Of a stretch of 64,000 bases of DNA, positions 2,968 to 24,740 are shown in pieces. The notes under the pieces are model-generated. The model worked only from the letters and a program-made list of their open reading frames with translations. It did no database searches and was not told where the DNA came from. The position numbers were made by a program, and so were the translations under genes. Every line of letters begins with the position of its first letter. The first letter of the stretch is position 1. This stretch comes from Algoriphagus aquaeductus (lineage in GTDB: Bacteria > Bacteroidota > Bacteroidia > Cytophagales > Cyclobacteriaceae): NCBI RefSeq assembly GCF_003253485.1, contig NZ_QKTX01000001.1:408799-472798 (forward strand), read 5' to 3'.

Positions 2968-4470
2968 ATGAAAATAAGACTAGTATTCATATTGTTTTTT
3001 CTCTATGGATTTACCATAGCACAAGAGAAAAGCCATCAGGATCAACTTCCTAAAGCCCAGGTCTTTGAATCCAAGCAATCGGTGACCATTGATGGAAAGG
3101 TCATTAACCTCAACGCAAAGGCAGGAACGATGGAATTGCGGGATGAGAATAACCGTCCCATCGCTCTCTATGGATTTACAGCCTATTTTAAAGAGAATCC
3201 GGAGAAAAACAGGCCGATTGTTTTTGCCTATAATGGTGGTCCCGGATCCTCTTCTTATTGGTTGCATATGGGTATTATGGGTCCGAAAAGGATCGTGGTG
3301 AATGATCCCAATTACAATCAGGCTGCACCTTATGAACTGGCCAACAATGAATTTTCAATTCTCGATATAGCTGATGTGGTGATGATGGATCCAGTCGGAA
3401 CTGGATTGAGTGTCCCGATCGGAGAATCCAAAGGGGCAGACTTTTGGGGCGTGGATCAGGATATTCGGAGTACCAGTCTCTTTATCATGCAGTTTTTGAA
3501 GCAGCATAATCGTCTCAATTCCCCAAAATATATTTTGGGAGAAAGCTATGGGACGTTCAGAAATGCCGGTGTGATGAATTATCTATTGGAAAAAGGTTAT
3601 GCGCTGAATGGAGTCATTATGGTGTCAGCAGTTTTTGACCTACGGACCTTGTTTTTCGCACCCAATGAGGATCTTCCCTATGTGGTGTACTTGCCTACCA
3701 TTGCAGCGACGAGTTGGTATCACCAGAAAGTGGCGGATCGGGGACCCGATTTACCAACTTTTGTCCAGCAGGTGAGGGAGTTTACCGAGAATGAATACGC
3801 TCCAGCCTTATTCAAGGGAAACAGAATATCCGCGTCTGAAAAAACTGCCATTGCCAAAAAATTGGAAGGATTTACCGGAATTGCGGCAGAGGTTTGGGAG
3901 AGATCGGATCTGAAATTGACTGCCAATGAATACTATCAAGAATTGCTCCGTGACGAAAGAATGACCGTGGGCAGATTGGATTCCCGCTATAAAGGAATCA
4001 ATATCGACCCCATGTCCATGTCAGCTTTTACGGACCCTCAGAGTGATGCGATTTCTCCTGCCTACACCATGGGATTTTTGGATTACTACCACGGCAGTCT
4101 AGGGGTGAGCAAGGATCTGCTGTATGCCACGTCAGCTTATTCCAAGGAAGGATTTAGATGGGACTGGAAGCATCAGGGAAATAACTTTTGGGGGGCTGAT
4201 GCCGCAGTGACTACCTTACCTGATATGACTGAAGCTTTAAGTAAAGATCCACACGTTAAGGTGTTGATTATGAATGGATATTATGACTTAGCGACAGTGT
4301 TTCATGGCGTAGAACATTCGATTTCTCATATCGAATTGCCCAAATCTGCTACCGATCGAATCATCATGACCTATTATGAAGCGGGGCATATGATGTATAC
4401 CCATCTACCGTCCGCTAAGCTGTTTAGAGCAGATTTAAAAAAATTCATCCAAGACACCTTGAGAAAATAA
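2968..4470 (+). CDS. S10 family serine carboxypeptidase-like protein
   Basis: This 500-residue secreted protein has a signal peptide (1-18, ending TIAQ). Family S10 motifs are present: the oxyanion region NGGPGSSSYW (89-98), the nucleophile in GESYG (Ser193), an Asp in NGYYDLATVF and a His in EAGHMMY near the C-terminus. S10 enzymes remove C-terminal residues at acidic pH in fungi and plants. Bacterial members are predicted periplasmic peptidases with little characterisation. The next gene, a beta-lactamase-fold protein, starts 3 bp after the stop, so the two are co-transcribed. Copies of the dispersed repeat lie on both sides of this pair. Confidence 0.92.
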   Translation: MKIRLVFILFFLYGFTIAQEKSHQDQLPKAQVFESKQSVTIDGKVINLNAKAGTMELRDENNRPIALYGFTAYFKENPEKNRPIVFAYNGGPGSSSYWLHMGIMGPKRIVVNDPNYNQAAPYELANNEFSILDIADVVMMDPVGTGLSVPIGESKGADFWGVDQDIRSTSLFIMQFLKQHNRLNSPKYILGESYGTFRNAGVMNYLLEKGYALNGVIMVSAVFDLRTLFFAPNEDLPYVVYLPTIAATSWYHQKVADRGPDLPTFVQQVREFTENEYAPALFKGNRISASEKTAIAKKLEGFTGIAAEVWERSDLKLTANEYYQELLRDERMTVGRLDSRYKGINIDPMSMSAFTDPQSDAISPAYTMGFLDYYHGSLGVSKDLLYATSAYSKEGFRWDWKHQGNNFWGADAAVTTLPDMTEALSKDPHVKVLIMNGYYDLATVFHGVEHSISHIELPKSATDRIIMTYYEAGHMMYTHLPSAKLFRADLKKFIQDTLRK

Positions 4471-16300: not shown

Positions 16301-17023
16301 TTACTTTGCAGTCACATCCAATACCAAAGAAACGGTATTGTAGATGAACTGATCTTTAGCTTTGTCAGTGGCGGCAGCTTCATCACCATACATCAATCCC
16401 CACTGGGTTCTGTCGATGTTGAAACCTGCCTTTGCAGCAACAGTTCCGTTTGCAATGCTAACTGCTGCAGGAAACTTAATGTTTTTGGTAGTACCTCTCA
16501 TGGTCAGGTTACCGCTGATCCAATGCGTTGGATTGGAGGGTGATAGAGAGCTGTCAGAGGAAGGAGTGAATTCAGAAGAGAATTCTTGCTTGTCAGCAAT
16601 CACATCTGAAGAAGAGAAAGGCGCTACACCAGTGATTTCGAATGTTGCAGTAGGGAAGTTGGCAGCATCAAAGAAGTCTGCTGATTGTAGGTGACCATAA
16701 AGTTTGCCATGGAATTCAGAACCTGCCTCCATGTCTTCGATCGTCAAACCCGGAATGTCAAAGGTGAACGAACCACCGGTGATTTGATCACCTGCCACAG
16801 TCAAGGTTCCTCCTGTAGAAGGGATTTTACCAAAATGCTTTCCTGCTGGCTTATACCCTGTCCAAGAAATGGTAGTAGATGCCAAATCAAGGTTGAGAGT
16901 TTGACCTTCGCCTGCAGCTACTTCCTGGGCGTCTGTAGTTTCTACCGTATCACCAGGTTTGCCACAAGCGAACGCGATCATGGTAGCGGCTAAGAAGAGG
17001 CCAATTTGCTTTGTAATTTTCAT
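16301..17023 (-). CDS. YceI family lipoprotein
   Basis: A 240-residue protein with a lipoprotein-type signal (MKITKQIGLFLAATMIAFAC, Cys20) and a Thr/Glu-rich linker, then the YceI beta-barrel domain: STTISWTGYKPAGKHFGKI, GGSFTFDIPGLTIED, SADFFDAANFPTATFEIT, NLTMRGTTKNIKFP and AKAGFNIDRTQWGL. YceI proteins are lipocalin-like and bind long amphiphiles such as polyisoprenoids. The gene is monocistronic, with its own terminator. Confidence 0.92.
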   Translation of the reverse strand: MKITKQIGLFLAATMIAFACGKPGDTVETTDAQEVAAGEGQTLNLDLASTTISWTGYKPAGKHFGKIPSTGGTLTVAGDQITGGSFTFDIPGLTIEDMEAGSEFHGKLYGHLQSADFFDAANFPTATFEITGVAPFSSSDVIADKQEFSSEFTPSSDSSLSPSNPTHWISGNLTMRGTTKNIKFPAAVSIANGTVAAKAGFNIDRTQWGLMYGDEAAATDKAKDQFIYNTVSLVLDVTAK

Positions 17024-17164
17024 AGTTAATTGTTTTGTTGGATTGGTTTCTACATTTAATGTATAGACACGTAAACTCTATTCAGGAAAAAAAGTTCAGG
17101 ACTGATTCAAAATTTTTAATTTTCCACCCAGAAAAAGATTCATTAGAGATCAAAACAAGATAAA

Positions 17165-17683
17165 ATGGCAATACTGATGGATGTAAAGGGCAAATCTCCT
17201 GAGTTTGGAGAGGGATGTTGGTTGGCCCCCAATGCTACTGTAGTCGGAGATGTCAAAATGGGGAAAAATTGCACGGTGTGGTTTAATGCAGTTGTCAGAG
17301 GAGATGTCCATGAGATTCGGATTGGAGATGATACCAATATTCAGGATGGAGTGGTGATTCATTGCACCTATCAAAAAGCTCCAACCTACATTGGAAATCA
17401 GGTTTCTATTGCCCACAATGCCGTGGTGCATGGCTGTACAATTCATGACCGGGTATTGATCGGTATGGGTGCCATCGTGATGGATGGTGCCATCGTTCAT
17501 TCTGATTCTGTGATTGCGGCCGGAGCGGTGGTTTTGGCCGGGACAGTAGTGGAATCCGGTACGATCTATGCAGGCATACCGGCAAAAAAGGTGAAGGAAA
17601 TCGGTCCTGAGATGCGAGAGGTGATAGAGCGTACCGCACGAAATTACCCCATGTATGCGGGGTGGTTTCAGGAAAAATTTTAG
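17165..17683 (+). CDS. gamma-class carbonic anhydrase family protein
   Basis: This 172-residue protein is a left-handed beta-helix made of hexapeptide repeats (for example VVRGDVHEIRIGDDTNIQDGVVIH) with a C-terminal helix. The three zinc-ligand histidines of the family fit VVIHCT, SIAHNAVV and VVHGCTI. Members hydrate CO2 or act as ferripyochelin-binding-like or YrdA-type proteins. The trimeric active site residues appear intact. It is divergent from YceI and followed by a likely terminator. Confidence 0.9.
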   Translation: MAILMDVKGKSPEFGEGCWLAPNATVVGDVKMGKNCTVWFNAVVRGDVHEIRIGDDTNIQDGVVIHCTYQKAPTYIGNQVSIAHNAVVHGCTIHDRVLIGMGAIVMDGAIVHSDSVIAAGAVVLAGTVVESGTIYAGIPAKKVKEIGPEMREVIERTARNYPMYAGWFQEKF

Positions 17684-17703
17684 TAAATCTCAATTTTTTG
17701 CAT

Positions 17704-17745
17704 CACCATTTTTGGATTGGAAATGGTGGGTTTTGTATTTTCAAG
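17704..17745 (+). terminator. probable terminator of the carbonic anhydrase gene
   Basis: The stem CACCATTT with AAATGGTG (17704-17711, 17721-17728) is followed by GGTTTTGTATTTT. The T tract is interrupted, hence the moderate confidence. Confidence 0.5.
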
Positions 17746-17758
17746 CAAATTTTTGACT

Positions 17759-18280
17759 ATGAACACACTTTTTGAATTCCTCAGCAAGGGAAAAAATCTT
17801 TTCCTATTGGCCCTTATTTTCATCGGTTTTAATCTTTTGCTGACCCATTTCATGCCCAAGGAATACGCTTTGGATTTGAAATTTGCCTATACCGTTGAGG
17901 AAGCCTATTTGTCTTTGGGGCATTTGGATCAAGGCCAGCGTGATCTTTATCGCTTGGGGGTTTGGTCTTTGGACATGCCCTATATGCTGGTATATACCCT
18001 TTTTTTCATGGGTGTTTTGTCTCGAATTTGGAACAGCTGGAAATATTCCTGGTTACCTATTGCCATTTCATTGATGGATTTTTTTGAAAATATTTTGATT
18101 CTCAGAATCCTTAAAATCTACCCAAGCCAAGATGTGACTTTGGTACGGTTTGCCTCATTTTTTTCAACTTCCAAATGGCTCCTTGTCGGAGTGCTCTTGG
18201 TCTTTGGCGTTGTTGGGTTGGGATATTGGTTAGTCCAAAGAGGATACTCCCAAGCCAATTCTACAGAGGCAAGGCTCTGA
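17759..18280 (+). CDS. hypothetical integral membrane protein (173 aa)
   Basis: The protein begins MNTLFEFLSKGKNLFLLALIFIGFNLLLTHF and has about four transmembrane helices (near 10-28, 75-95, 100-125, 140-165). Between the first and second helix is a soluble loop, YTVEEAYLSLGHLDQGQRDLYRLGVW. The ATG at 17759 is preferred to 17717, since the added residues (including part of the terminator hairpin) look non-coding. No family is recognised. It lies upstream of the amidoligase operon on the same strand but is separated from it by 91 bp, so it is probably not part of it. Confidence 0.75.
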   Translation: MNTLFEFLSKGKNLFLLALIFIGFNLLLTHFMPKEYALDLKFAYTVEEAYLSLGHLDQGQRDLYRLGVWSLDMPYMLVYTLFFMGVLSRIWNSWKYSWLPIAISLMDFFENILILRILKIYPSQDVTLVRFASFFSTSKWLLVGVLLVFGVVGLGYWLVQRGYSQANSTEARL

Positions 18281-18344
18281 CCCTTTCTGTTAGGCTCCCG
18301 ATTTTCTTTTTTTCTTTTCCCTGAATTTTGACTAGTATTTGAGA

Positions 18345-18361
18345 ATGGTTAGTCAAACCAT
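18345..18361. promoter_or_regulatory. small inverted repeat just upstream of the amidoligase operon
   Basis: ATGGTT and AACCAT flank a 5-bp spacer, AGTCA, ending 10 bp before the start codon at 18372. It could be an operator or an mRNA hairpin over the ribosome-binding region. The repeat is short and the call is tentative. Confidence 0.25.
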
Positions 18362-18371
18362 CTAATTTAAA

Positions 18372-19094
18372 ATGGAAGGAATGAAAGAAGAATATTTTAA
18401 GTGGTACTCCCCGCACCTCAATCGTGATGTAGAAATGCTGGTTTTCGGACATGCAGGCTATCCGGTGGTGATATTTCCCACATCCATGGGCTCATTTCAT
18501 GAGAATAAGGACATGGGATTGATCGCCTCAGCCCAGTGGTATGTGGAGCAAGGATTGATTCAGATTTTTTGTCCGGAGAGCAATGACAGGCAAAGCTTTT
18601 ACAATAAGTCTATTCATCCTCATGAGCGAATCCAAAATCATGTGGCCTATGACAAAATGATCTGTCATGAGCTAGTGGAAAGAATCCGACTCAACACCTC
18701 TGCGGCAAAGGTGGTCGTAGCAGGATGTAGCTTTGGGGGCTACCATGCCAGCAATTTTGCTTTCAGGCATCCGGGGTACGTAAGCCATCTTTTCAGTATG
18801 AGCGGAGCGTTTGACATCCGGAATTTTATGGATGAATACCAGCATGACGACATTTATTACAATTGTCCGCTTGAATATCTACCAGGGCTTCAAGATGGGG
18901 AATTGTGGAAAATGGGGATTGTCCTCGGTACCTCCAATTGGGACATTTGCTTTGATTCCAATATCAAGCTGCATCAGATATTGAAAAGCAAAAATATTCA
19001 GCATTGGTTTGATGTGCGGCAGGATCGTCAGCATGATTGGCCACTCTGGAAGGAAATGTTTCCACACTACCTGTCCACTATCAAATTTGATTAA
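18372..19094 (+). CDS. predicted esterase (alpha/beta hydrolase, COG4947-like), first gene of amidoligase operon
   Basis: This 240-residue cytoplasmic alpha/beta hydrolase has its nucleophile elbow as VAGCSFGGYHASNFA (Ser120) and the likely catalytic His in RQDRQHDWPLW (His221). The N-terminal strand pair, EMLVFGHAGYPVVIFPTSMG, contains a probable oxyanion region. There is no signal peptide. It leads a five-gene operon with spacings of 39, 11, 42 and 1 bp. In this setting it may release, trans-acylate or hydrolyse the product of the ligases. The substrate is unknown. An alternative start (18381) would remove three residues. Confidence 0.85.
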   Translation: MEGMKEEYFKWYSPHLNRDVEMLVFGHAGYPVVIFPTSMGSFHENKDMGLIASAQWYVEQGLIQIFCPESNDRQSFYNKSIHPHERIQNHVAYDKMICHELVERIRLNTSAAKVVVAGCSFGGYHASNFAFRHPGYVSHLFSMSGAFDIRNFMDEYQHDDIYYNCPLEYLPGLQDGELWKMGIVLGTSNWDICFDSNIKLHQILKSKNIQHWFDVRQDRQHDWPLWKEMFPHYLSTIKFD

Positions 19095-19133
19095 TAGAAT
19101 CCACTAGCAACCTAAATTATTTACCTAAGAATT

Positions 19134-20090
19134 ATGAAAAAAATCGGGATACTTTTCGGGATGGAGGACACCTTTCCTCATGCATTTGTAGAACGCGTAA
19201 ATCAAAAAGCAGAAAAAGGAATAGTAGCAGAGGCGGTCAAAATCGATAAAGTCATTCAAAATGAGCTGACCGAGTATGCGGTAATCATCGATCGGATTTC
19301 TCAGGATGTTCCGTTTTATCGGGCGTACCTGAAAAACGCTGCCCTGACCGGTACCGCTGTGATCAATAATCCCTTTTGGTGGAGTGCTGATGACAAGTTT
19401 TTCAACAACTGTCTTGCAGATACCCTTGGTGTTCCGCTACCAAAAACGGTGATTTTACCTTCAGCCAAACATCCGGATGATACCACTTCCAAGTCATTCC
19501 GAAACCTGGTAGCTCCATTGGATTGGGAGGGGATTTTTAATTACGTCGGCTTCCCCGCGTACATGAAGCCTTATGCAGGGGGTGGATGGAAAAATGTCTA
19601 TCGACTGGAGAATAAAGAAGAGTTTTTTCAAAAACATCCAGAAACAGGTCAGTTGGTCATGTTGCTACAGGAGGAGATCGTGTTCGATGAATACTTCAGA
19701 GTTTATTGCTTGGGTGGCAAGGCGGTAAGGATCATGGAATATGAGCCTCGAAATCCCCACCATCTTCGATACGTGGTGGATCGGGCACCTTCCTCCAAAA
19801 AACTTCTCGCCACAGTCAAAGACTACACCACGCGCCTGTGCACGGGATTGGGCTATGACTTCAATACGGTTGAATTTGCAGTCCGTGACGGGATTCCTTA
19901 TGCCATTGATTTTGGCAATCCGGCTCCGGATGCGGATGTCAATTCGGTCGGACAGGAGAATTTTGAATGGGTTGTCGAGGAAGCCGCAAAAATGGCCATC
20001 GCCTATGCCAAAGCCCATAAGCCAGGTAAAATGAATTTGACTTGGGGAACCTTTGTAAAGAATTCAGTAGAAATGGCCAAGAGATTTTAA
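19134..20090 (+). CDS. ATP-grasp ligase (RimK/glutathione synthase-like)
   Basis: This 318-residue ATP-grasp enzyme has a pre-ATP-grasp domain (1-110), the ATP-binding Lys in GFPAYMKPYAGGGWKNVYRL (Lys145) with its glycine-rich loop, the nucleotide-hinge strand LVMLLQEEIVFDEYFRVYCLGG, and magnesium ligands in FNTVEFAVRDG and YAIDFGNPAPDADV (Asp259, Asn262). Such enzymes join a carboxylate to an amine or thiol through an acyl phosphate. It is the second gene of the operon, and the next gene, another type of amidoligase, starts 11 bp after its stop. The substrates are unknown. Confidence 0.88.
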   Translation: MKKIGILFGMEDTFPHAFVERVNQKAEKGIVAEAVKIDKVIQNELTEYAVIIDRISQDVPFYRAYLKNAALTGTAVINNPFWWSADDKFFNNCLADTLGVPLPKTVILPSAKHPDDTTSKSFRNLVAPLDWEGIFNYVGFPAYMKPYAGGGWKNVYRLENKEEFFQKHPETGQLVMLLQEEIVFDEYFRVYCLGGKAVRIMEYEPRNPHHLRYVVDRAPSSKKLLATVKDYTTRLCTGLGYDFNTVEFAVRDGIPYAIDFGNPAPDADVNSVGQENFEWVVEEAAKMAIAYAKAHKPGKMNLTWGTFVKNSVEMAKRF

Positions 20091-20101
20091 TCCTCATCAC
20101 G

Positions 20102-21220
20102 ATGTCTATTGCATTGAAAAAACTTCCCAAGTTTACCCTGGGAGTGGAAGAAGAGTACATGATCATCGATCCCAAAACCAGGGATCTTCGATCGCACATG
20201 TCCAAAATAGTGGAAGGAGGCAAGATTCAACTCCGGGAGCAAGTCAAGGCCGAAATGCACCAATCGGTGGTGGAGGTTGGAACCAATATTTGCCAAAATG
20301 TTGCAGAAGCCAGAAAAGAAGTTTCCTATCTCCGGAAGAAAATTTCAGAATTGGCCACGGCCCAAGGCTTAACCGTCGGGGCTTCCAGCACCCATCCTTT
20401 CGCCAAGTGGCAAGATCAGGAAATCACAGATGATCCACGGTATCACAACATCGTCAATGAGCTTAAAGATATCGCCCGATCCAATCTCATTTTTGGGCTG
20501 CATGTCCATGTGGGGATCGAAAGCAGGGATGTCGCGCTCCAGCTGATGAATCAGGCCTGTTATTTTCTGCCTCATATATACGCACTTACCACAAATTCCC
20601 CGTTTTGGGAAGGTAGAAATACGGGTTTTAAAGCCTTTAGAGCCAAGGTTTTTGCCAAGTTTCCAAGAACCGGTTTGCCGGAATACTTTGATTCGGTCCA
20701 GTCTTATGACAATTTTCTGGAAATTCTGGTCAAAACCAATTGCATCGACAATCCCAAAAAAATCTGGTGGGATCTCCGGATGCACCCCTTTTTCAGTACC
20801 ATCGAGTTTCGAATCTGCGATATGTGTCTGACCGTGGATGAGACCATTTGTATTGTGGCAATCATTCAAGCCGTGGTGGCCAAACTTTACAAGTTGCAGA
20901 TGAGCAACACCAGTTTCAATATTTACCGGATTGCCTTGATCCGGGAGAATAAATTCAGAGCTGCCAGAAATGGGATTGAGGGATTGCTGATTGACTTTGG
21001 GAAAAAGGTCGAAGTGCCTACCAAAGAATTGATCATGGAACTGCTTGAGTTTATAGATGACGTGGTGGATGATCTGGGAAGCAGAGAGGAAATCAATTAT
21101 GTACACAAAATCATGGAAAGAGGAACTGGAGCCGATCAGCAGCTGGAGGTTTTTGAGAAGACTGGCAGTCTGGAAGCTGTGGTTGATTTTATTACAGGAA
21201 AGTTTACCGAAGGGATTTAA
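20102..21220 (+). CDS. carboxylate-amine ligase of the GCS2 family (YbdK-like)
   Basis: This 372-residue protein of the glutamate-cysteine ligase type 2 family opens FTLGVEEEYMIIDPKTRDLRSH with the metal-binding Glu triplet (16-18). It then has GASSTHPFAKWQDQ, the His motif NLIFGLHVHVGIES, and WWDLRMHPFFSTIEFRICDMCLTVDE. GCS2 proteins form gamma-glutamyl or related amide bonds with ATP. The family fold is that of glutamine synthetase, so this is chemically parallel to but unrelated to the ATP-grasp genes around it. The start at 20102 avoids overlap with the preceding gene. It is the third gene of the operon. Confidence 0.9.
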   Translation: MSIALKKLPKFTLGVEEEYMIIDPKTRDLRSHMSKIVEGGKIQLREQVKAEMHQSVVEVGTNICQNVAEARKEVSYLRKKISELATAQGLTVGASSTHPFAKWQDQEITDDPRYHNIVNELKDIARSNLIFGLHVHVGIESRDVALQLMNQACYFLPHIYALTTNSPFWEGRNTGFKAFRAKVFAKFPRTGLPEYFDSVQSYDNFLEILVKTNCIDNPKKIWWDLRMHPFFSTIEFRICDMCLTVDETICIVAIIQAVVAKLYKLQMSNTSFNIYRIALIRENKFRAARNGIEGLLIDFGKKVEVPTKELIMELLEFIDDVVDDLGSREEINYVHKIMERGTGADQQLEVFEKTGSLEAVVDFITGKFTEGI

Positions 21221-21262
21221 CCTATTGCTTACCTTTGGTCCCAAGACTTAACGGAAGGAACT

Positions 21263-22093
21263 GTGCCTAGGAAAAAAACAAATCTTGCCATTTTGGACAT
21301 GTACAACGGCGAGCCCAATCAGGGGATGCGTTGTATCCATGATATTTTGGAGAGGTTTTCGGATCAGATCAGCTTCAGGGAATTTGACGTAAGGGGTAAA
21401 GGAGAGCTTCCTGATATTCGGGAATTTGATCTGTTTATTTCTACCGGAGGTCCCGGTAATCCTTTAGAGGGAGACGGGAATTGGGATTTGAAATACTACG
21501 ATTTCTTGGATCAGGTTTGGATTTGGAATCAAAATCACAGTCGAAAAAAACACCTGCTGTTGATTTGTCATTCGTTTCAGATGGCCTGCAAGCATTTTGG
21601 GTTGGGGGACATCACCCCGCGCAAATCCCAGTCTTTTGGTGTCATGACCGTACACAAAACCCCGGAAGGACTCTTTGATCCTATATTCCAAAACCTGAGT
21701 AATCCTTTTTGGGCGGTGGATTCCCGAGACTATCAAGTGGTCCAGCCTGATCATAGAAAGTTTAAAACGCTCGGAGCAAAAATCATTGCCCTAGAAAAAA
21801 TCCGTAACCACGTCGAATATGAAAGGGCGATCATGGGAGTCCGTTTTTCTGATGAAATCGTCGGGACACAGTTTCATCCCGAAGCAGATCCCATCAGTTT
21901 TTTGGAACATCTGAAAAAACCTATGGTGAAAGAAAAAATCATCGAGCTAAAAGGAAAAGCAAAGTATCGAACCATGTTGGAGAATTTGGTGGATGAGGAT
22001 AAAATCTATCGAACCAATGAAACTTTCATTCCCAATTTTCTTTCCCAAGCCCTTCAGAAAATCAAGTTATCCCAGTCCCCAACCTTAATCTGA
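21263..22093 (+). CDS. class I glutamine amidotransferase (GMP synthase GATase-like)
   Basis: This 276-residue protein starts at GTG. The triad is visible: nucleophile Cys102 in LLICHSFQMA, and His205 and Glu207 in GTQFHPEADP. The oxyanion strand is ISTGGPGNPLEGDG. The elbow reads ICHSFQ rather than the common GxCxGxQ, so activity should be tested rather than assumed. A C-terminal extension of about 65 residues follows the usual domain. It would supply ammonia to an acyl phosphate made by one of the ligases nearby. The next gene starts 1 bp after its stop. Confidence 0.88.
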   Translation: MPRKKTNLAILDMYNGEPNQGMRCIHDILERFSDQISFREFDVRGKGELPDIREFDLFISTGGPGNPLEGDGNWDLKYYDFLDQVWIWNQNHSRKKHLLLICHSFQMACKHFGLGDITPRKSQSFGVMTVHKTPEGLFDPIFQNLSNPFWAVDSRDYQVVQPDHRKFKTLGAKIIALEKIRNHVEYERAIMGVRFSDEIVGTQFHPEADPISFLEHLKKPMVKEKIIELKGKAKYRTMLENLVDEDKIYRTNETFIPNFLSQALQKIKLSQSPTLI

Positions 22094-22094
22094 T

Positions 22095-23285
22095 ATGATC
22101 CAAAAGCTTCGAGAGCAGTTTAATCAAGAATTTTCGGAGGATAAGTATAAGGAACTTCTTCGGGATATTGCTTCGGATTTTGGCTATGCGCCCACCTTTC
22201 GGATTGCGGAAACTCCCTTTTTTATCCCCAAAACCCTCGAAAAGCAGATCTTTGAAGCTTGTAGCCAAGTCATAGACTTTATCAAAAGGCCTGATTTCAA
22301 ACAATTGACTCAGCGGTCCATCGAGCTAAACACGGCTGTGCCCAATGAAGATGCCCATACGCAGTTTCTGGCGATTGACTTTGGAGTCTGCGAAGAAAAC
22401 GGGGCCATAGTTCCTAAATTGATAGAGGTTCAGGGATTTCCCTCCATCTTTAATTTTCAATTGAACCTGTTTCAAAAATTCAGGAAGCTGTACCCTTTTC
22501 TTGCTCAACTTAGCCCATACCCCAATGGAATCGATGAGGAGCAATACTTAAGCTTATTGAAGCAGGTGATTTTTGGCGGGTGGACTCAGGAAGAAGTGGT
22601 ATTATTGGAAATCGAGCCGGAGAAGCAAAACACCAAAATTGATTTTTATTATGCCAATCGGGATTTGGGTATCCCTGTGATCTGTGTGACGGAGGTGATC
22701 AAAGAGGGTCGTCAGCTGTTTTACACCAAGGCTTCGGGAGAAAAAATCAGAATTCGGAGAATTTACAACCGGGTGATCTTTGATGAACTCAATCTCCGAA
22801 AAGACTTAAAGTTGACTTTTAGCTTTGAAGAGGATTTGGATGTGGAGTGGGCAGGTCATCCCAATTGGTACACCCGAATTTCAAAATTCATTCTACCGTA
22901 TTTGAAAGGTCCCTACTTCATTGAGACCCAATTGCTGAGTGACTTGGAGGTTATTCCGGAAGATTTGGAAAATTACGTCTTAAAACCCTTGTTTTCTTTT
23001 TCAGGTTCGGGGGTGATTTTTCATGTCAAAAAGGAAGATATTGAATCCGTGAAGGAACGAGACCTGTATATCCTTCAGAAAAAAGTCCACTACCTGCCTG
23101 TGGTTCAATCACCGGATGGAGGAGTCAAAGTGGAGGTGAGGATTTTGTGCCTTTGGCCTGAAAAAGATGAAAGCCCGACTCTCGTGGGGAACCTCGTTCG
23201 GTTGAGCCGGGGCGAGATGATCGGCGTCAAATTCAATAAGGACAAAGATTGGGTAGGGGGATCAATAGGTCTGTTTGAAAAATGA
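22095..23285 (+). CDS. uncharacterised protein resembling a circularly permuted ATP-grasp, last gene of amidoligase operon
   Basis: The protein has 396 residues with no signal peptide. Segments that look like ligase motifs are AIVPKLIEVQGFPSIFNFQ (104-122), a basic patch, IRIRRIYNRVIFDEL (218-231), and NYVLKPLFSFSGSGVIFHVKKEDI (293-315), which resembles the Lys and glycine-rich loop of glutathionylspermidine synthase-type, circularly permuted ATP-grasp enzymes. The end reads WVGGSIGLFEK. I assign the fold by pattern, not by a match I can verify. Its 1-bp spacing to the amidotransferase gene argues for tight coupling. It ends at a strong terminator. Confidence 0.7.
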   Translation: MIQKLREQFNQEFSEDKYKELLRDIASDFGYAPTFRIAETPFFIPKTLEKQIFEACSQVIDFIKRPDFKQLTQRSIELNTAVPNEDAHTQFLAIDFGVCEENGAIVPKLIEVQGFPSIFNFQLNLFQKFRKLYPFLAQLSPYPNGIDEEQYLSLLKQVIFGGWTQEEVVLLEIEPEKQNTKIDFYYANRDLGIPVICVTEVIKEGRQLFYTKASGEKIRIRRIYNRVIFDELNLRKDLKLTFSFEEDLDVEWAGHPNWYTRISKFILPYLKGPYFIETQLLSDLEVIPEDLENYVLKPLFSFSGSGVIFHVKKEDIESVKERDLYILQKKVHYLPVVQSPDGGVKVEVRILCLWPEKDESPTLVGNLVRLSRGEMIGVKFNKDKDWVGGSIGLFEK

Positions 23286-23310
23286 AAGCCGGTAGGAAAC
23301 CGGCTTTTTT
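23285..23310 (+). terminator. terminator of the amidoligase operon
   Basis: AAAGCCGGT and ACCGGCTTT pair around a 5-base loop and are followed by TTT. The hairpin overlaps the last base of the operon stop codon and directly abuts the pyrE stop on the other strand, so it may serve both directions. Confidence 0.85.
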
Positions 23311-23958
23311 CTATTCTTGCATCCATTTACTGGGATTGACTCTCCATTCGGAGAGGGATTTTAAGGTGGATTCATTGATGTAGTGGCTCGCTACCGCCTG
23401 AGGAAGCAGTGCATCGTAATGACTCAAACAGACTAATTTTACTCCGGCATTTGAGAAATTCTGGTCTGCTACCTCAAATCCATAACTGAAAATGGCGACC
23501 ATCCCCAATACCTCAAATCCTGCGTGGCGCAAGTCTTCTACAGCCTTCAGCGAACTTCCTCCAGTAGAAACCAAGTCTTCCACAACGACTACTTTTTGAC
23601 CGGGGGTTACTTTTCCTTCGATCATATTTTCCATGCCATGGCCTTTGGGCTTGGACCTGACATAGACAAAGGGCAGGTTCAGTTCATTGGCAATGAGTGC
23701 TCCTTGAGGAATACCTGCAGTCGCCACTCCGGCGATAGCTTCTGTTTCCGGGAAAAAATGCCGGACTGATTTTACCAATTCATCCCGGACAAGATTTCTA
23801 ACTTCAGGAAAGGAAAGCGAAAGTCTGTTGTCGCAATAAATCGGGGATTTCCAGCCAGAAGCCCAAGTAAAGGGCTTTTCAGGTTGCAGTCGGATGGCTT
23901 GAATTTCGAGTAGTTTTTGGGCTACTTCAGCTGCTGTGATGGGGTTGAGAATTTCCAT
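23311..23958 (-). CDS. pyrE: orotate phosphoribosyltransferase
   Basis: This 215-residue enzyme of de novo pyrimidine synthesis converts orotate and PRPP to OMP. The PRPP-binding signature is KVVVVEDLVSTGGSSLKAVEDL. Substrate regions are FTWASGWKSPIYCDNRLSLSFPEVR and AGVATAGIPQGALIAN. The ATG at 23958 (MEILNPITAAEVA) is chosen, since longer versions add an unrelated hydrophobic stretch. It is divergent from the NUDIX gene at 24054. Confidence 0.96.
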   Translation of the reverse strand: MEILNPITAAEVAQKLLEIQAIRLQPEKPFTWASGWKSPIYCDNRLSLSFPEVRNLVRDELVKSVRHFFPETEAIAGVATAGIPQGALIANELNLPFVYVRSKPKGHGMENMIEGKVTPGQKVVVVEDLVSTGGSSLKAVEDLRHAGFEVLGMVAIFSYGFEVADQNFSNAGVKLVCLSHYDALLPQAVASHYINESTLKSLSEWRVNPSKWMQE

Positions 23959-24053
23959 GGGGTCAAAAATAAGGGAATATAAAGCTATGAAATTGTGACA
24001 GCTGATTTTTTTATGCATTTTTGACCACACCACCATCTTTTACACAGACCCAC

Positions 24054-24740
24054 ATGAAGATCTTTGTGAATGACAAGCCTTTGGAGATTCTCAACTATGA
24101 AGAGCTTGATTCTTCCAAGTCGTTTGAGCATAGTTACCAGAATTTGGATGAAATTCCCGAAGATGTAGAATGGGATGAAGATGTGATTTTTCATGAGCCC
24201 AGTCAGGATTTGGTGATCCGTCTGCTGTACTTGATGCGGACCCGGAAAATGAAAAAACTGGACTCGGTAACTTTGGTGACCCACGATAAAAAGGCACTAA
24301 AAGAGTTTGTGAAAAGCAGGTTTTTGATCATCAAGGCAGCAGGAGGGATTGTGTCCAAAAAAGACAAAATCCTGATGATTTACCGCTTGGGGAAATGGGA
24401 TTTTCCGAAAGGGAAATTTGACAAAGGGGAGACCCCGGAGGAATGTGCCAAAAGGGAAGTGGAAGAGGAATGTAATGTCAAAGTGAAAATCGATTCCCAT
24501 ATCTGCAATACTTGGCACACCTACACCCAAAACAGAAGAAGCATCCTCAAAAAGACCTATTGGTATGCGATGGACTGCATCAATGATTCGGGAATGAAGC
24601 CGCAGGTAGAAGAGGGGATAGATGAGATTTTGTGGCTTTCTGAAGGAGATGCCAAGACTGCCTTGATCAATTCCTATCCCTCAATGAGATATCTCTTCAA
24701 GCAATACTTACTCAATCACCTGAAATCTCAGATTTTGTAA
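24054..24740 (+). CDS. NUDIX hydrolase with N-terminal extension
   Basis: The protein has 228 residues. The Nudix box lies in the second half as GKFDKGETPEECAKREVEEECNV, preceded by MIYRLGKWDFPK. The first 90 residues (MKIFVNDKPLEILNYEELDSS ... VTLVTHDKKALKEFVKSRF) form a separate alpha/beta region. Such enzymes hydrolyse a nucleoside diphosphate linked to another group, and the substrate is unknown. The ATG at 24054 is favoured over an upstream TTG. The 3' end overlaps the convergent coaD by 13 bp. Confidence 0.88.
   Translation: MKIFVNDKPLEILNYEELDSSKSFEHSYQNLDEIPEDVEWDEDVIFHEPSQDLVIRLLYLMRTRKMKKLDSVTLVTHDKKALKEFVKSRFLIIKAAGGIVSKKDKILMIYRLGKWDFPKGKFDKGETPEECAKREVEEECNVKVKIDSHICNTWHTYTQNRRSILKKTYWYAMDCINDSGMKPQVEEGIDEILWLSEGDAKTALINSYPSMRYLFKQYLLNHLKSQIL

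Follow-up and report, generated by a model that had tools for sequence, protein, structure and literature searches.

The NAGGN osmolyte cluster and the Puu gamma-glutamylputrescine pathway each pair a ligase with a protein of amidotransferase fold, and NAGGN also includes a peptidase; the proteins of both belong to families other than those considered here. The amidoligase operons predicted by Iyer and colleagues in 2009 reportedly contain mixtures of ATP-grasp ligases, ligases resembling glutamate-cysteine ligase (GCS) and peptidases. Among single ligases, PMC12568646 cites YgiC and YjfC as peptide-spermidine ligases and shows that Cp1B ligates amino acids in the E-64 pathway. Here, we describe a five-gene operon (g1 to g5) in a 64,000-nucleotide stretch of Algoriphagus aquaeductus DNA (contig NZ_QKTX01000001.1, positions 408,799 to 472,798 of the forward strand; hereafter the window), in which three different ligases stand beside an esterase and an amidotransferase-like protein. 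We conclude that the operon is real, conserved and devoted to one pathway, and that it is a variant of known multi-ligase peptide systems. Its five neighbouring genes probably build a small, glutathione-like intracellular peptide.

Composition and conservation of the gene set

All five open reading frames (ORFs) lie on the + strand, and the last ends at a terminator-like hairpin (23284-23308). The intergenic gaps are 39, 11, 42 and 1 bp; a preliminary description of this DNA had given exactly this spacing and a single closing terminator. The last ligase, g5 (22095..23285), reaches no family model: Pfam gives nothing at E 0.1, and NCBIfam a single, sub-threshold match. Structure searches place its whole-chain predicted fold among the circularly permuted ATP-grasps, in the superfamily of glutathione synthetase, glutathionylspermidine synthetase (GspS) and YgiC. 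The order of motifs is permuted accordingly, with E111-x-Q113, presumably the acidic Mg motif, ahead of K297-P298, presumably the ATP-binding Lys-Pro; both are invariant in 48/48 alignment rows (filtering by redundancy and length kept 47/54 rows for g5, 39/78 for g2, 31/40 for g4 and 9/10 for the M29-like protein introduced below; the g4 alignment also leaves out L123 and the M29 alignment adds two rows from further genomes). As g5 has no match over the cut-off of the Pfam family GSP_synth, which we take to be PF03738, it is not assigned there.

The second gene, g2 (19134..20090), is predicted from structure to be an ordinary ATP-grasp ligase, perhaps nearest to RimK/LysX: its best VIA match is RimK, at 12-18% identity to RimK/LysX-ArgX ligases. 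Its Pfam and NCBIfam matches are all sub-threshold, the best being rimK_fam, and it scores 26.4 bits for the RimK family TIGR00768, under the curated cut-off of 143.4. A sequence relation between g5 and g2 is not significant by hhalign (0.26). The third ligase, g3 (20102..21220), is a GCS2/YbdK-like carboxylate-amine ligase matching PRK13515 with 523.3 bits (cut-off 371), the GCS2 family PF04107 and YbdK (1r8g, 7.9e-53); of 14 control genomes, five match PRK13515 below the cut-off and none above it. The first gene, g1 (ORF 18372-19094, likely 18381..19094), encodes an alpha/beta hydrolase of the Esterase family PF00756 (1e-6), in which S120 and H221 recur in 18/19 aligned sequences and D191 in 19/19, residues that we assume to be catalytic. 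The fourth, g4 (21263..22093, GTG start), encodes a class I glutamine-amidotransferase-like protein (GATase, PF00117; 30.9 bits against a cut-off of 22.8, 2.7e-7), whose Cys-His-Glu triad (C102, H205, E207), GGPG motif and Q106 are invariant in 32/32 rows.

The genes were sought in 198 genomes sampled evenly over the phylum, a match at 1e-5 counting as presence. Matches were found for g5 in 60, g3 in 62, g2 in 72, g4 in 50 and g1 in 85 genomes, the last count taking in relatives outside the operon. The ligases thus occur in roughly one in three of these genomes, and we found neither name nor product for the system. Both g2 and g5 occur in 58/198 genomes, against 21.8 expected (p 6.9e-34, kinship not corrected); g1 was not included in this comparison, and G066, in which g5 is split over two contigs, was entered with one of the two pieces. 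Since only 35 of these 58 genomes carry g2 and g5 within 5 kb on one contig, up to 23 keep the pair unlinked, a number that may be inflated where draft contig breaks conceal links.

An alignment search with g2 of a contig collection (84,980 species by its description) found at least 585 relatives, of which the best 80 were annotated as loci, a sample hence conditioned on g2. These loci span Bacteroidota, Ignavibacteria and metagenome-assembled genomes (MAGs) titled as Verrucomicrobia groups (15), Thermoanaerobaculum (1), Calditrichaeota (1) and Cloacimonetes (1); the 18 loci titled outside Bacteroidota, Ignavibacteria and Chlorobiota, counted by eye, are all MAGs and possibly misbinned. Locus ORFs come from simple longest-ORF calling, and their lengths may be too long in high-GC loci. 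The order g1-g2-g3-g4-g5 is intact in 32/80 loci and g3 and g5 are both present in 54/80; many contigs are short, with 23/80 loci without g3 or without g5 and three more with g5 but without g3. Only one of the 80 has g1 on the opposite strand. Pairwise divergences of g2, g3 and g5 correlate at r 0.74 to 0.87 (52 loci), the operon genes are single-copy in the window genome at the thresholds used, and a plasmid collection held no match to g2, g4 or g5 at 1e-5.

These results agree in part with the preliminary description, which had proposed a single pathway with three different ligase types and a peptide-like or amidated small molecule as product; we likewise arrive at one pathway, with three amide-forming ligases of different folds. 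The genes are conserved together, both in the 80 loci and in the 198 genomes. Its family names for g1, g3 and g4 were right, as was ATP-grasp for g2, and structure comparison has sharpened 'ATP-grasp-like' for g5 to the circularly permuted, glutathione synthetase type. It had also noted neither exporter nor regulator inside the operon and no known product, as we find here.

The fourth position and the proposed pathway

Of the 54 loci that carry both g3 and g5, 35 have g4 in the intervening slot, ten have an M29 aminopeptidase-like protein there and nine have no gene; g4 and the M29-like protein are never there together. Among the 60 genomes bearing g5, 21 have no g4 at 1e-5. The M29 subfamily is found at 1e-40 in 2/198 genomes, both with g5 and without g4, whereas the remaining 19 genomes with g5 but without g4 lack it too. 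In the M29-like protein, E195, E267, H293, H313 and D315 are invariant in 11/11 rows; we take them to be metal ligands. Because an aminopeptidase-like protein replaces g4, the step served by this slot is read as hydrolytic trimming, and g4 is best read as a trimming hydrolase, perhaps a gamma-glutamyl peptidase. Plant gamma-glutamyl peptidases GGP1 and GGP3 trim glutathione conjugates, according to PMC6243137.

The preliminary description had instead cast g4 as an ammonia donor, and a true amidotransferase passing glutamine ammonia to g5 or g2, with an amidated peptide as product, would account for the PF00117 match, the invariant triad, GGPG and Q106, and the near overlap of g4 and g5 (median gap 8 bp). 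Such a role sits poorly with a slot that is taken by a peptidase-like protein in ten loci and left empty in nine, with the g5 genomes that do without g4, and with a distance between g4 and g5 of under 5 kb in only 27/39 genomes having both. We regard it as possible but doubtful, and trimming as the better fit.

The fifth gene has a counterpart of its own. In a second flavour of the operon, a circularly permuted ATP-grasp type 2 protein (c8, PF14403) stands between g2 and g4 in place of g5, often with another PF00756 esterase (c9) downstream of g4. All eight c8 loci fetched (L052-L059) have g2-c8-g4, and three (L052, L055, L058) have the full g1-g2-c8-g4-c9. At 1e-40, c8 is present in 12/198 genomes. 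Eleven of these coincide exactly with the set of 11 genomes that have g4 and lack g5; the twelfth (G137), a weaker match, does have g5. As both belong to the permuted ATP-grasp class, c8 probably performs the job of g5, with a sequence relation between the two that is not significant by hhalign (0.055).

From the gene set, its conservation, the predicted folds of g2 and g5, the conserved catalytic-type residues and the replacement in the slot, we infer which reactions take place, in what order, on which substrates and to what product, as follows. The ligases g2, g3 and g5 would each activate a carboxylate as an acyl phosphate and couple it to an amine. Most likely g3, of YbdK/GCS2 type, would form a gamma-glutamyl amide; g2, the RimK/LysX-like ATP-grasp, would append an amino acid; and g5 would attach either a further, third amino acid or an amine resembling a polyamine. 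The activities of YgiC, YjfC and Cp1B indicate that the fold of g5 can join amino acids or polyamines. The product would then be trimmed by g4 or its M29 substitute, most likely through removal of a residue that is either N-terminal or gamma-glutamyl. An ester, thioester or amide of the product may be the substrate that g1 hydrolyses. A small peptide or peptidyl-amine that is assembled step by step and used inside the cell is suggested by the presence of three kinds of ligase together with hydrolases, by the lack of exporter, carrier-protein or regulator families among the five proteins (Pfam, NCBIfam) and by the lack of Rfam matches over 17000-24500 up to E 1. A set that is widespread, single-copy and diverging in step further suggests a cellular metabolite and speaks less for a secreted compound of sporadic occurrence.

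Taken together, a single intracellular pathway in which three ligases build, and g4 or the M29-like protein trims, a short peptide or peptidyl-amine independently of the ribosome and of non-ribosomal peptide synthetases (NRPSs) is our leading explanation, at a probability of roughly 0.5. Two observations qualify it. The match of the M29-like protein to PF02073 (4.7e-15) spans only a part of that profile, and NicX dioxygenase matches the protein too; and g3 is missing from some genomes with g5. The Saprospiraceae loci L157 and L170 read g1-g2-g4-g5, without g3.

A redox or detoxification system akin to glutathione or trypanothione would assign g3 as a gamma-Glu-Cys-type ligase, g5 as an analogue of glutathione or glutathionylspermidine synthetase, g1 as an S-formylglutathione-hydrolase-like esterase and g4 to salvage. 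It draws on the whole-length matches of g5 to glutathione synthetases and GspS, the placement of g3 in the Pfam glutamate-cysteine ligase family 2 and the PF00756 match of g1. However, bshC, the marker for bacillithiol, is found at 1e-20 in 196/198 genomes, whether or not they have the operon, and 192 of these exceed the family cut-off; at E 0.1, none of the S-formylglutathione hydrolase models matches g1; and some g5 genomes lack g3. We therefore hold this unlikely, and the near-universal bshC leads us to reject a simple replacement for bacillithiol as the product.

Less likely again is a tagging system for proteins or peptides, in which g2 would extend a protein C-terminus with a tag made by the other ligases and g4 or the M29-like protein would remove it. 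RimK as best match of g2 would suit such a role, and the amidoligase literature is said to predict protein tagging for mixtures of ligases and peptidases. Against this, no recurrent small acceptor gene was noticed by the loci, in which ORFs under 70 or 80 aa are not listed, and the relatives of g3 and g5 with known substrates are small-molecule ligases. A role in anti-phage defence was also considered and set aside, as PADLOC gave no family at E 0.01 for any of the five proteins.

A bolder form of the pathway can be put forward only tentatively: an undescribed, abundant intracellular counterpart of glutathione or glutathionylspermidine, in the form of an amine-capped gamma-glutamyl peptide, might exist alongside bacillithiol in many Bacteroidota and other phyla, made by a ligase from a new branch within the eukaryotic-type glutathione synthetase fold, with maturation by cysteine or metal peptidases that can stand in for each other. 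The small number of enzymes with assayable reactions, and the alternative flavours (g4 or M29-like; g5 or c8), make product and trimming directly testable in culturable genera, so that the product of the pathway is now open to direct search.

Operon boundaries and neighbouring genes

The flanking genes (17165-17683, 17756-18280 and 23311-24036) are matched at 1e-10 in only 7/80 loci (L140, L143-L145, L150, L152, L156), all titled Algoriphagus, and the operon proper is therefore taken as g1 to g5. Within a genus, neighbouring genes can stay together through synteny alone, as these seven loci illustrate, but that g1 to g5 are unrelated genes kept together by synteny or chance is highly improbable, because, unlike the flanks, their order is kept across loci titled as several phyla and their co-occurrence persists even where they are unlinked.

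Translation of g1 probably starts at the second ATG, 18381, rather than at 18372, since the ORFs of five Algoriphagus-titled relatives open with MKEE or MQEE at the matching position; in L143 and L144, also titled Algoriphagus, an in-frame start exists upstream of that position. The listed ORF of g3 opens farther upstream at a TTG, and the 11-bp gap to g2 follows from taking its start as the ATG at 20102. On the + strand, the hairpin at 23284-23308 overlaps the end of g5 and has a 10-pair stem with five G-C pairs and a T-rich tail; on the - strand it has a 9-pair terminator-like form that would serve the convergent gene 23311-24036, a phosphoribosyltransferase (PF00156) that ends at 23311. Terminator-like sites as a class are not enriched in the window (14 against a shuffle mean of 13.6).

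Upstream of g1, the box ATTTTGACTAGTATTTG at 18325..18341 (+ strand), preceded by a T-rich stretch, may be a promoter element. By inspection of eight aligned relatives (seven titled Algoriphagus and one Belliella), ATTTTGACTAGTATTT stands upstream of g1 in L143, L145, L150 and L152, is degraded in L140 and L156, and was not seen in L144 or L118. Promoters of Bacteroidetes have the form TAnnTTTG, to which the ATTTTGACTAGTATTT box is not an exact fit, and a sigma-70 scan gave no site at 18325-18341. The inverted repeat TTTGACTA/TAGTCAAA just 5' of g1 was rejected as an operator, as it does not recur at this place in the same eight relatives.

Further genes adjoin the cluster in some loci. A second PF00756-type esterase, divergent and on the opposite strand, lies no more than 1 kb from g1 or g2 in 41/80 loci (L092-L171), and a similar esterase in L032 matches PF00756; one representative has only weak matches in the window genome (1.8e-7 and 7.1e-6), and the divergent esterase is therefore not counted as part of the set. 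An extra ATP-grasp protein of about 400 aa adjoins the cluster at L053:10136-11311, L042:2396-3604 and near 3085 in L059. A serine carboxypeptidase follows g3 in L065, L067 and L079 (PF00450 in L067), and the window ORF 2968-4470 (500 aa) clusters with this family; g2 is some 11 kb away in L067 and some 15 kb away in L079, in both beside a gene that looks ammonia-lyase-like on inspection. At L085:7140-8963, g3 and g4 are separated by an amidohydrolase gene (PF07969), with relatives adjoining g4 in L063 and g5 in L082. Downstream of the operon, 11 loci from Mucilaginibacter, Pedobacter and one Sphingobacteriaceae MAG encode a large protein of some 1,130 aa (L132:14954-18334 and ten others), in which Pfam, applied to L132, identifies domains of GH18, polysaccharide deacetylase and glycosyltransferase 2. 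In L148 (12305-14828), L147 and L151, which have g2-g3 without g5 and include one locus titled Chitinophagaceae and one Sediminibacterium, g3 is followed by three genes, the first of which is 178-179 aa long and in L148 is classed by Pfam as an ECF sigma factor.

Comparison with known systems

Among the titles and abstract beginnings listed for open-licence papers, no description of the five-gene set was found, although the 2009 account by Iyer and colleagues may contain one; in PMC4431377, the terms 'amidotransferase' and 'COG2170' do not occur. E-64 biosynthesis, with Cp1B and a second amide synthetase, is fungal, uses an ANL-type second ligase and starts from epoxysuccinate. The RimK and LysX-ArgX systems differ in that no LysW or ribosomal-protein partner was noticed in the loci, where no model-based search for one was made. 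Glutathionylspermidine synthetase, YgiC and YjfC are 11-13% identical to g5, the sequence-profile match to YgiC being weak (0.029). A close parallel is the synthesis of glutathione and homoglutathione: one operon here pairs a GCS-family ligase (g3) with a ligase predicted to have the permuted glutathione synthetase fold (g5). Unlike glutathione synthetases, with 10-16% identity to those listed, g5 carries E-x-Q where we presume E-x-N in those enzymes, and the operon adds a RimK-like ligase, a putative trimming slot and an esterase, in genomes that already have bshC.

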